64,000 bases of DNA. It comes from Methanosarcina barkeri 3. GTDB taxonomy: Archaea; Halobacteriota; Methanosarcinia; Methanosarcinales; Methanosarcinaceae. Shown here piece after piece: positions 3,589-11,970 of this stretch (the first letter of the stretch is position 1; the number at the start of each line of letters is the position of its first letter). The position numbers were made by a program, and so were the translations under genes. The notes under the pieces were generated by a model. The model had not been told where the DNA came from. It saw only the letters and a list, made by a program, of their open reading frames with translations, and made no database searches. The stretch lies in contig NZ_CP009517.1 of NCBI RefSeq assembly GCF_000970305.1, positions 1,054,001-1,118,000 on the forward strand, given 5' to 3'.

Positions 3589-3728
3589 TATCCCTTCAAA
3601 TATCCCTACAATTATCCCTTCAAATATCCCTTCAAATATCCCTTCAAATATCCCTTCAAATATCCCTTCAAATATCCCTTCAAATATCCCTACAATTATC
3701 CCTACAATTATCCCTTGAAATATCACCT
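3589..3728. repeat. 12-bp tandem array
   Basis: About eleven copies of atcccttcaaat and its variant atccctacaatt. Because 12 is a multiple of three the array stays open on the minus strand as a GIFE-type repeat peptide, but that reading lacks an SD and is judged non-coding. Confidence 0.85.
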
Positions 3729-4680: not shown

Positions 4681-4965
4681 AGAAGCAAAGGCAGCCAAAA
4701 GCAGTATTTAGTAAAAAAGCAATTACAGGGAAAAAACAGTCAATGAAAAGCCAATGGCAAGGAAAACCCAGTCAATGAAAAGAATAACAAGGAAAAAGCA
4801 ATAAGAAAACAGTATAAAGACAGTAATAACCAGTAAAATTATAAAGCCAATAAATTGGCTTAAATCAAACAAATTATTCCAGTAGTCATTTTAGTCGTCA
4901 GACACTTTAACTGTCAACTATTTGCTGCTAGTCACTTTGGCCGTCAAGCACTTTAGCCATCGTTG

Positions 4966-5100
4966 TTTTAGCCATCGTTATTTTAGCCATCGTTATTTTA
5001 GCCATCGTTATTTTAGCCATCGTTATTTTAGCCATCGTTATTTTAGCCATCGTTATTTTAGCCATCGTTATTTTAGCCATCGTTATTTTAGCCGTCGTTT
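4966..5100. repeat. 15-bp tandem array abutting ferredoxin 3' end
   Basis: Eight exact copies of ttttagccatcgtta (4966-5085), flanked by variant copies on both sides. The last variant unit overlaps the final codons and stop of the minus-strand ferredoxin gene. The array therefore looks like an expansion of the gene's own tail sequence. Confidence 0.9.
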
Positions 5101-5318
5101 CCTATTGCGTTAACCGGACAGGTTTCTAACGCTTCTTCGCAAAGTTCTTTTTCTTCGTCATCTTCAGGCTGCTTATATACATAAGCATTGGAATCATCAT
5201 CGTTCATCTTAAAATTCTCAGGCGCAGTATCTACACAGAGATGACAGGCTATACAGCTGTAGTCACAATAATAAGGTCCTGGAATATTTTCAACAACTTT
5301 ATCTGAGCTATCGGCTAT
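5088..5318 (-). CDS. Single-cluster [4Fe-4S] ferredoxin with apparent AUA start
   Basis: About 76 aa when read from an ATA at 5318. The product has the compact one-cluster ferredoxin pattern: YYCDYSCIACHLC at about residues 15-27, then APENF, and a distal CPVNAIGND at the end, with an acidic middle. It would be a soluble electron carrier. There is no ATG, GTG or TTG in frame upstream of the cluster cysteines, and an in-frame TGA lies two codons before the ATA. The only internal ATG would delete the first three ligands. A perfect SD (GGGGGAGTGA, 5322-5331) sits at normal distance from the ATA. Alternatives are a very recently lost start codon or a sequence error. Confidence 0.75.
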   Translation of the reverse strand: MADSSDKVVENIPGPYYCDYSCIACHLCVDTAPENFKMNDDDSNAYVYKQPEDDEEKELCEEALETCPVNAIGNDG

Positions 5319-5321
5319 ACT

Positions 5322-5331
5322 TCACTCCCCC
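5322..5331 (-). promoter_or_regulatory. Shine-Dalgarno deciding the ferredoxin start
   Basis: GGGGGAGTGA read on the minus strand. The GGAG core is six bases from the ATA codon proposed as start, and no other in-frame codon at this distance is a conventional initiator. Confidence 0.65.
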
Positions 5332-5597
5332 ATTGTGTTTATTTTACAATAAGAGTAATTAAGAGAATTTTTATATATAGCTTAACATTCCAAAATAAAT
5401 TTTTTAGTGAATTGAATTTCTCGAGAAGTTACGCAATCCTGTACATCTTAATGCATATCAAAAAGGCCTGGTTTAGTAACTAGCCAGTTTAGTAATTATT
5501 CATATAGTTTTTTGAATTTTTCACTGTTGTACATTTGTCTCAAAACCTGAAAACAATCTGGTTAAAACTTGAATTACCCTTTTCATTATTTCATGTT

Positions 5598-7052
5598 TTA
5601 GTGAAGATTCTCATCCTCATTGAGAATCTTCAGGAGCTCGATAATCGAATACGAAGCTCGGGTAATTCCCATGCTGCGTTTATCAGTATCGGTACCCACT
5701 ACATAGAGGTTTCGAACAGGAGTTCGAATATCTGCAAACTTTCCATTAATTGCGACTGCAGCTTTTTCTGGGACCATTATCTGTTCGTGCTGCATATCGA
5801 TATATTTCTCAATGTTCGGATGGGCATGGAAAATTGTATCGTAGGCTTTTTTTGTCTCCTCTTCTTCACTTTTATTTTCATCGATCACGAAGGAAAAGCC
5901 TATAAGCTGCTTATTCTTTGGAGCAAGCGAAGGATCATAGTTACTTATAGGAGTTGCCCAATAGGCAAAATCCTTGAACCAGATCTCTGAGCCTGTGTAG
6001 TTGAAATTGGGAAACTCTTTTTCAAGTCCAAGCCAAATTGTCAGGCTTTTACTATGAACAATTCCCTTGAGGTCTTTAATATACTCTGTGGGAAGATCCC
6101 TTATCAGCATGGGAAGCTCGGTTGCAAAACCTGTGTAGACAACAAGTTCAGAGTTATATATCTCATCGGCTTCCACGCCTGAAACCTTTCCGTCCTGTAC
6201 AAGGACGGATTTAACCTCACATTCCGTTTTGATTTCCACAGTTTCCGGAAGTGAGTAAAGAATGGCGTTGAGCAGGGCTTTTAAGCCTTTTCTGGGATAA
6301 CCCTGAGAATCATTTACATCATTTGTTGCAAGCCTTTCCAGGGATGCAAACGGCTGAGTAACTCTGGTCATTCTTGCCTGAAGAGAAGCATGAAGATGAT
6401 ACGGAAGGATTGAGGCAAGGATAGATTCTGTAGACTGGGATTTTTTCGGTTCCATTTTACCTATCATGACATCAAACTGCTCCTGAGTAATACTATCCCT
6501 TACAAAATTACTGCCATACAGGATACGTTGAGCTGAGGTCTCCTTCATAGGTTTTCCTGAAAGTGAAATAGACATTGTGTCCACAAAATCATAGGTGTCT
6601 TTTGAAAGGCTTTTTGGCAAAAAATCGTATACTGCTCGGTCTGAAAGATCTATTCCGAATGAAGAAAGAGTAAAAGCTTTTGTAAGGGTCTGGGAAAGCA
6701 AAACTCTGTCCTTTCTAGGAAGCACATCAAAAGTAACGAAATCTTTGAGATTGGAAGGAACTTTGACAAAAGTATTTTCAGTTCGAATATAGTAGTACCC
6801 GTAGTCTTCAAATATAGGTAGATAATCAAAATAATTGTCCATCAATCTCTTCAGGGGTCCTTCAATCAGATGGGTTATCGCATGTACTCCTGTATCTACC
6901 TGATAGCCCTCTACCATGTAGCTATTGCAATTTCCTCCAATATGCTGCCTTTTCTCAAGAACAAGGACCTTTTTTCCGTGTTTGGAAAGTGTTAGAGCTA
7001 CTAAAAGCCCGCTTATGCCCGCCCCGACAACAACTACGTCATACTTTTTCAT
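5598..7052 (-). CDS. FAD-dependent oxidoreductase, phytoene desaturase (CrtI)-like
   Basis: About 484 aa, typical for the CrtI/amine-oxidase flavoprotein superfamily. The N-terminus has the dinucleotide fold VVVGAGISGLLVALTLSKHG followed by VLVLEKRQHIGGNCNS, the GG doublet of this family. The C-terminus has the second FAD motif, NLYVVGTDTDKRSMGITRAS. Substrate is unclear: the family includes carotenoid desaturases, isomerases and prenyl-lipid enzymes. No carotenoid genes sit next to it. ATG at 7052 is preferred; a TTG at 7058 is also close to the SD GAGGT. Monocistronic. Confidence 0.8.
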   Translation of the reverse strand: MKKYDVVVVGAGISGLLVALTLSKHGKKVLVLEKRQHIGGNCNSYMVEGYQVDTGVHAITHLIEGPLKRLMDNYFDYLPIFEDYGYYYIRTENTFVKVPSNLKDFVTFDVLPRKDRVLLSQTLTKAFTLSSFGIDLSDRAVYDFLPKSLSKDTYDFVDTMSISLSGKPMKETSAQRILYGSNFVRDSITQEQFDVMIGKMEPKKSQSTESILASILPYHLHASLQARMTRVTQPFASLERLATNDVNDSQGYPRKGLKALLNAILYSLPETVEIKTECEVKSVLVQDGKVSGVEADEIYNSELVVYTGFATELPMLIRDLPTEYIKDLKGIVHSKSLTIWLGLEKEFPNFNYTGSEIWFKDFAYWATPISNYDPSLAPKNKQLIGFSFVIDENKSEEEETKKAYDTIFHAHPNIEKYIDMQHEQIMVPEKAAVAINGKFADIRTPVRNLYVVGTDTDKRSMGITRASYSIIELLKILNEDENLH

Positions 7053-7120
7053 TTTCAAAACAACCTCTATTTTTACGCCCTATATTTTCCCGTGAGGCTA
7101 ATTTCTAGCCACTATAACCA

Positions 7121-11087: not shown

Positions 11088-11720
11088 TTACATCTTCGGT
11101 GAAGACCTGAACTCAAGCCGGATATTGTATAGAAGGTGCCAGAGATCACCTTTTTTTTCCATTCTTTCCGCATCAGTTACAGCTCCCTGCCCTTCGAGCT
11201 CAAATCTGATACTGCACTTCCCGAAGGTAACTTTTCCAAGCCTGCTTTCCATCCTGCTATAATCAAGGGCATCGGCAAGCCGGATAAGGGCAGCTACTTT
11301 AAGGGTAAGCTCCTGAAGATCTTCAGGCATTTTCTCAAAATTTTTTTCTTTAAGTTTCTCAATTTTCTCTTTGCCTGCACTCTTTTTATGCAGGAAAGCC
11401 GTCCAGGCAATAACAGGCCTGAGTCTTTCAGGCACCTCTAAAGGCGGGTGAAGGAGTAAAATGTTCCTTCCTGTTTTATGATGATTCTCAAAATCGGTTT
11501 TTACTCCGATATCGTGGACAAGAGCAGCTGTTTCTACCAGGTTTCTCATTTCGGGTTTCAGTCCGTGTATAGAAGCAAGAATGTCAAAGAGCTTAAGAGC
11601 GTTCCTGGCCACGTTATCGGCGTGGCTGCGTTCAATTTCATAAATACTGTAGAGATCCTCCAGAGGCAACGGCTCAGGACGAAGGTCTTTCTCAAGTCTT
11701 TTATGTTTCAATGTTTTCAC
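11088..11720 (-). CDS. HD-domain protein (Ppx/GppA C-terminal-like)
   Basis: 210 aa, starting at GTG 11720. HD-superfamily metal ligands are visible: RSHADNVARNALKLFD, then AALVHDIGVKTD (the HD doublet), ENHHKTGRNILL, and later ALIRLADALDYSR. The arrangement resembles the C-terminal HD module of exopolyphosphatase/GppA proteins, here without the N-terminal ASKHA domain. Probable metal-dependent phosphohydrolase acting on a nucleotide or phosphate ester; the substrate is unknown. It lies 180 bp before the phosphoglycerate-mutase-like gene on the same strand but is separated from it by a tandem array. Confidence 0.8.
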   Translation of the reverse strand: MKTLKHKRLEKDLRPEPLPLEDLYSIYEIERSHADNVARNALKLFDILASIHGLKPEMRNLVETAALVHDIGVKTDFENHHKTGRNILLLHPPLEVPERLRPVIAWTAFLHKKSAGKEKIEKLKEKNFEKMPEDLQELTLKVAALIRLADALDYSRMESRLGKVTFGKCSIRFELEGQGAVTDAERMEKKGDLWHLLYNIRLEFRSSPKM

Positions 11721-11970
11721 GTTTGAATCTTCATCTGGCTGATTACTTCCTAAAGGTTTATTAGCCGAACTAGGATTAAAACCCCCTTTAGATATGAGTT
11801 AGACCTCCTTTATACATGAGTTAAACCTCCTTTCTATATGAATTAAAATCTCTTTCTATTTATTTCTTATATTTATCTACATTAATCAAATTAATAATAT
11901 TTTCATCCCAAATTTAAAATAAATGCAATAGAACAAATAAATTAGCAAAGATTGCAAATTTAAAATCAGG

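Follow-up and report, generated by a model that had tools for sequence, protein, structure and literature searches.

The DNA analysed here, called the window, is a stretch of 64,000 nucleotides from the 4.56 Mb single-contig genome of Methanosarcina barkeri 3. Reading on the minus strand from position 5318 to position 5088, a frame of 76 codons followed by TAA is open without interruption, and its first codon is ATA. In a Pfam search the 76-residue product matched Fer4_13 (PF13370) with an E value of 1.3e-20 and a domain score of 74.2 bits, above the gathering score of 24.5. Its relatives of solved structure include the ferredoxins 1dax (Desulfovibrio ferredoxin I), 2z8q and 1siz. The first-pass annotation had proposed a complete ferredoxin gene in this interval with all four cysteine ligands, and both proposals are borne out: Cys 22, 25, 28 and 67 give the CxxCxxC...CP pattern, and the product is a predicted carrier of one [4Fe-4S] cluster. 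It shares the domain and the cluster motif with the single-cluster ferredoxins of PF13370 and the three structures above, but many Methanosarcina copies have an extra Cys at positions 18 and 60, and the start codon here is ATA. The gene is present in a single copy in the genome, and the closest named relative at the locus is Methanosarcina spelaei (99%). The first-pass annotation named no strand for the interval; a plus-strand reading was dropped, as its frame is interrupted. The features of the locus are as follows.

5088..5318, minus strand: coding sequence of a single-cluster [4Fe-4S] ferredoxin with predicted ATA start, 76 amino acids plus TAA
5118..5120, minus strand: fourth ligand, Cys67, in a TCP motif (translation and alignment)
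5235..5255, minus strand: cluster ligands Cys22, Cys25 and Cys28, CxxCxxC (translation and alignment)
5316..5318, minus strand: predicted ATA initiation codon (homologous position in orthologues)
5322..5324, minus strand: in-frame TGA two codons 5' of the ATA (sequence)
5325..5331, minus strand: Shine-Dalgarno (SD) sequence GGGGGAG, 6 nt before the ATA (sequence, duplex energy and alignment)
5331..5333, minus strand: ATG of a three-codon upstream ORF (ATG GGG GAG TGA), in frame and overlapping the SD
5371..5379, minus strand: TATA box TATATATAA (alignment; kept in nearly all Methanosarcina orthologues)

Among the neighbours, only a convergent HTH gene is linked to the ferredoxin in orthologous loci, and this linkage is found within Methanosarcina. 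An FAD oxidoreductase (5601-7058) was considered as an operon partner and dropped, as it is not linked to the ferredoxin in orthologous loci. A 15-nt unit (TTTAGCCATCGTTAT, plus strand) is repeated ten times in tandem at positions 4952-5099, starting at the ferredoxin stop codon, and this unit is a copy of the last codons of the gene (AACGACGGCTAAAAT). An array resembling it is present in M. spelaei and absent from the other species checked. A separate 12-nt tandem repeat (TATCCCTTCAAA) occurs eleven times at 3589-3724, where the minus strand gives an (IFEG)n frame.

The sequence leading into the ferredoxin on the minus strand is ATG GGG GAG TGA AGT ATA GCC. Because the in-frame TGA lies two codons before the ATA, an N-terminal extension of the protein is excluded. 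Codons 2 to 21 were searched for ATG, GTG and TTG and contain none; codon 22 is the first ligand Cys, and the next in-frame ATG is codon 38, where initiation would cost three of the four Cys ligands. The earlier claim that initiation must be at ATA is thus supported by the arrangement of stop and start codons, and the ferredoxin almost certainly begins at AUA. A similar arrangement is common in the orthologues. Of the 17 Methanosarcina with ATA, 16 have a stop (TGA, TAA or TAG) at the site equivalent to 5322..5324, an in-frame stop lies one or two codons 5' of the start in 23 of the 31 rows of the orthologue alignment with ATA or ATC, and in the window gene and 22 of these 31 rows there is no ATG, GTG or TTG anywhere from the upstream stop to codon 21. 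The description of the gene as invisible to gene callers holds for a listing of ATG, GTG and TTG ORFs of at least 50 amino acids; NCBI table 11 formally includes ATA among possible starts. The SD had been called perfect. It is strong, but it matches AGGAGGTGATC exactly over no more than 4 nt; the median SD duplex of the ATA rows is about -10.6 kcal/mol. From the position of the TATA box (5379-5371), a leader of about 30 nt is predicted. The GTG within the SD (GAGTGA), used together with a frameshift, was also considered as a start and rejected, as this element is not conserved among the ATA orthologues.

Of 31 Methanosarcina genomes, 28 yielded an orthologue of the ferredoxin, and in the family as a whole there are matches in 73 of 112 genomes. 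At the homologous start position, the 81 orthologue rows have 30 ATA, 1 ATC, 47 ATG and 3 GTG. The 27 Methanosarcina copies with a readable start divide into 17 ATA and 10 ATG, and the other genera of the family show 13 ATA, 1 ATC, 37 ATG and 3 GTG. Cys 22, 25, 28 and 67 are invariant among the ATA and ATC rows with data. On a tree made from the codon alignment with the start codon left out, there are at least nine switches between ATA or ATC and the standard starts, and well-supported branches force at least seven changes of the ATA label. Near-identical neighbours can differ in this single base (L065 has ATG and L066 ATA; L067 has ATA and L076 ATG). A sequencing error that would be corrected to ATG is ruled out, since the ATA is present in 30 separate genomes (17 from Methanosarcina and 13 from other genera). 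The comparison with other Methanosarcina that had been proposed supports the ATA start, but the original view of it was too narrow, as the trait recurs across the family and in other genes.

The ferredoxin is not the only such gene. In 1.80 Mb of the genome, the window included, coding frames were sought that follow an SD but lack a standard start. A search like this yields mostly chance hits; many of its SD-codon hits were accidental or antisense, and ATT and AAA came up as often as ATA. Four candidates were therefore checked against their genus orthologues, and our claims are limited to candidates checked in this way. A MinD/CooC-like P-loop ATPase (IKIAITGKGGVGKTT; L195, orthologues L196-L224; G000:C1:1382421+) has ATA in all 30 Methanosarcina genomes where it was found, and there is no room for a later start because the P-loop begins at residue 7. 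Its relatives in the genus of G071 have an ATG one codon upstream, lack an SD and are apparently leaderless. Genus orthologues of a DUF1269 protein have 12 ATA and 14 ATG at the same position, and an AGCS-type symporter (L283-L302; G000:C1:622332+) has ATG at the start position in 13 species and ACG in 7. For methanogenesis marker protein 11 (TIGR03280; L255-L282; G000:C1:1400792+) the apparent start is ATT in 28 of 28 copies, preceded by AAAAAGGAGGT, but this putative start is unproven, since several homologues in another genus align across a stop codon. We tentatively suggest that near-cognate starts (AUA, ACG, AUU and perhaps CUG) could form a conserved, genome-wide kind of translational control in Methanosarcinaceae, affecting perhaps 1% of genes or fewer, with an initiation stringency that is relaxed or tunable and with annotations that truncate or miss the genes concerned; as a whole, this proposal is possible but somewhat doubtful.

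Several other loci have the appearance of near-cognate starts. Within the window, a NosD-like parallel beta-helix secreted protein of 692 aa (44671-42592, minus strand) has a candidate ATA directly after an in-frame TAA and behind a GGGGGA SD; its apparent signal peptide begins exactly at the ATA, and its top genus orthologues align from residue 1. A gene of HD/Ppx-GppA type (11088-11798, minus strand) has a possible ATA start behind AGGAGGT, with a GTG further in as an alternative, and immediately upstream lies a tandem duplicate of its SD-start segment that carries an out-of-frame ATG. Further candidates on G000:C1 beyond the window, named by eye, are an MgtC-like gene with ACG (575548-), a glyoxalase-like gene with ACG (497695-), a metallo-beta-lactamase-fold-like gene with CTG (1283060-) and a CBS-domain-like gene with ATA (15941-).

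An ATA at the head of a reading frame could be the mark of a decaying gene that has lost its start codon. Five Methanosarcina genomes have absent, remnant or frameshifted copies: G001, G017 and G019 give no match, G024 keeps a remnant and the copy in the G016 MAG is frameshifted. Loss or decay in several species implies that the ferredoxin is dispensable in those lineages. Elsewhere the frame is kept intact by selection, as the first-pass annotation had argued. Whole-gene pN/pS is 0.125 in ATA-bearing Methanosarcina and 0.163 in ATG-bearing ones, so that purifying selection is equally strong in both, and codons 2-12 are also constrained (0.35 and 0.26, respectively, from few sites). Sister strains show no accumulation of frameshifts apart from the fragmented MAG of rows L033/L047, the G024 remnant and the three genomes without the gene. 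The SD, the TATA box and all ligands are retained, and whole clades keep the ATA, all of which makes a dead gene highly improbable. Initiation could instead occur at the upstream in-frame ATG (5333-5331), by readthrough of the TGA or by reinitiation after the three-codon ORF. One Methanosarcina clade conserves the in-frame order ATG GGG GAG TGA AGT ATA, and in row L022 the stop is missing and the frame is open from the upstream ATG. This ATG is missing from many ATA-bearing orthologues, however (L021, L026, L028, L033, L051, L053 and others), and the stop that would be read through varies among TGA, TAA and TAG. As the element is not conserved among the ATA orthologues, this route is refuted as a general explanation, and we give it very little credence for the window gene.

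The remaining alternatives accept the ATA as the start site and differ in what it means. AUA would be a full-strength start if these archaea devoted to it an initiator tRNA with a UAU-type anticodon, or edited the RNA. The recurrence of the ATA preference in several genes fits this idea, but it would not explain ATC, ACG and perhaps ATT at the start position, and it appears very unlikely. No CAU tRNA was found in 1.8 Mb of the 4.56 Mb genome. Tolerated drift, in which ATG to ATA transitions persist by virtue of a strong SD and bring no regulatory benefit, is the more substantial alternative. ATA and ACG are each one transition from ATG, close relatives alternate between ATA and ATG (the L065/L066 and L067/L076 pairs), and the pattern is seen in several unrelated genes. 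Mere tolerance of a weak start should let in GTG and TTG as well, each of which begins about 10% of the genes in 604 kb scanned from the same genome; the 17 non-ATG starts of the Methanosarcina ferredoxin are all ATA, with no GTG and no TTG. The P-loop ATPase, moreover, holds ATA in 30 of 30 species, although there codon 3, too, is ATA without exception and the region varies little. On this balance we regard drift as unlikely, while allowing it some real weight.

We consider it very likely that this is a functional ferredoxin gene with an SD-anchored AUA start read by the ordinary initiator tRNA, and that the AUA is probably a selected low-efficiency start. In the proposed mechanism, the GGGGGAG of a leadered mRNA would pair with the 3' end of 16S rRNA and so bring the start codon into the P site. 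There AUA would be accepted by the ordinary CAU initiator Met-tRNA despite the third-position mismatch, and residue 1 would be Met. The probable result is a low output, partly offset by the strong SD. Alternatively, the output may be sensitive to initiation stringency, with aIF1 taking the part in archaea that IF3 has in bacteria. Archaeal aIF1 destabilises complexes on non-AUG mRNAs (PMC6237735), and output from an AUA start would thus depend on aIF1 stringency. A GGGGG SD is found in 29 of 30 ATA rows and 18 of 47 ATG rows; phylogenetically independent pairs point in the same direction at about 4:0 but do not reach significance at this number, and in Methanosarcina taken by itself no difference in SD energy is seen between ATA and ATG copies (p 0.84). 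On these grounds, attenuation is a benefit that we infer.

A weak AUA start behind a strong SD is already known in bacteria. In Staphylococcus aureus, infC (AUA), ccpN (AUA) and cvfC1 (AUU) have extended SDs, with evidence from ribosome profiling and from reporters with lowered translation (PMC13009471). Both systems have a conserved AUA or AUU start behind a strong SD, but the S. aureus genes are bacterial and governed by IF3, whereas the predicted AUA start described here belongs to the archaeal aIF1/aIF2 system and concerns a ferredoxin in which AUG and AUA have been switched many times across species. The classic AUU starts of Escherichia coli infC and pcnB, the two known chromosomal ones as cited in PMC13009471, may be likened to it in that a weak start would limit translation; infC is autoregulated through IF3, whereas no autoregulatory link is evident for the ferredoxin. 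Within the same genus, the Ribo-seq study of the M. mazei small proteome documents translated small ORFs with ATG, TTG, GTG and 5% CTG starts (PMC11456600). ATA is not among the starts that it reports, and neither ATA nor ATT was found in its main text. Only AUG, GUG and UUG are given as starts in a recent review of archaeal initiation (PMC7531240), and a limited search of the open-licence literature found no archaeal precedent for an AUA start.

In dozens of related genomes the same start position is now AUG, now AUA, which amounts to a natural experiment on start-codon stringency. The archaeal aIF1/aIF2 initiation system is homologous to the eukaryotic one, and the start-codon question can be tested in the genetically tractable Methanosarcina, where the P-loop ATPase offers an ATA in 30 of 30 genomes. 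The findings also reveal a class of real genes that gene callers overlook or cut short, and some of these may act in central metabolism. These archaea seem to use starts that lie outside the expectation of gene-finding software.
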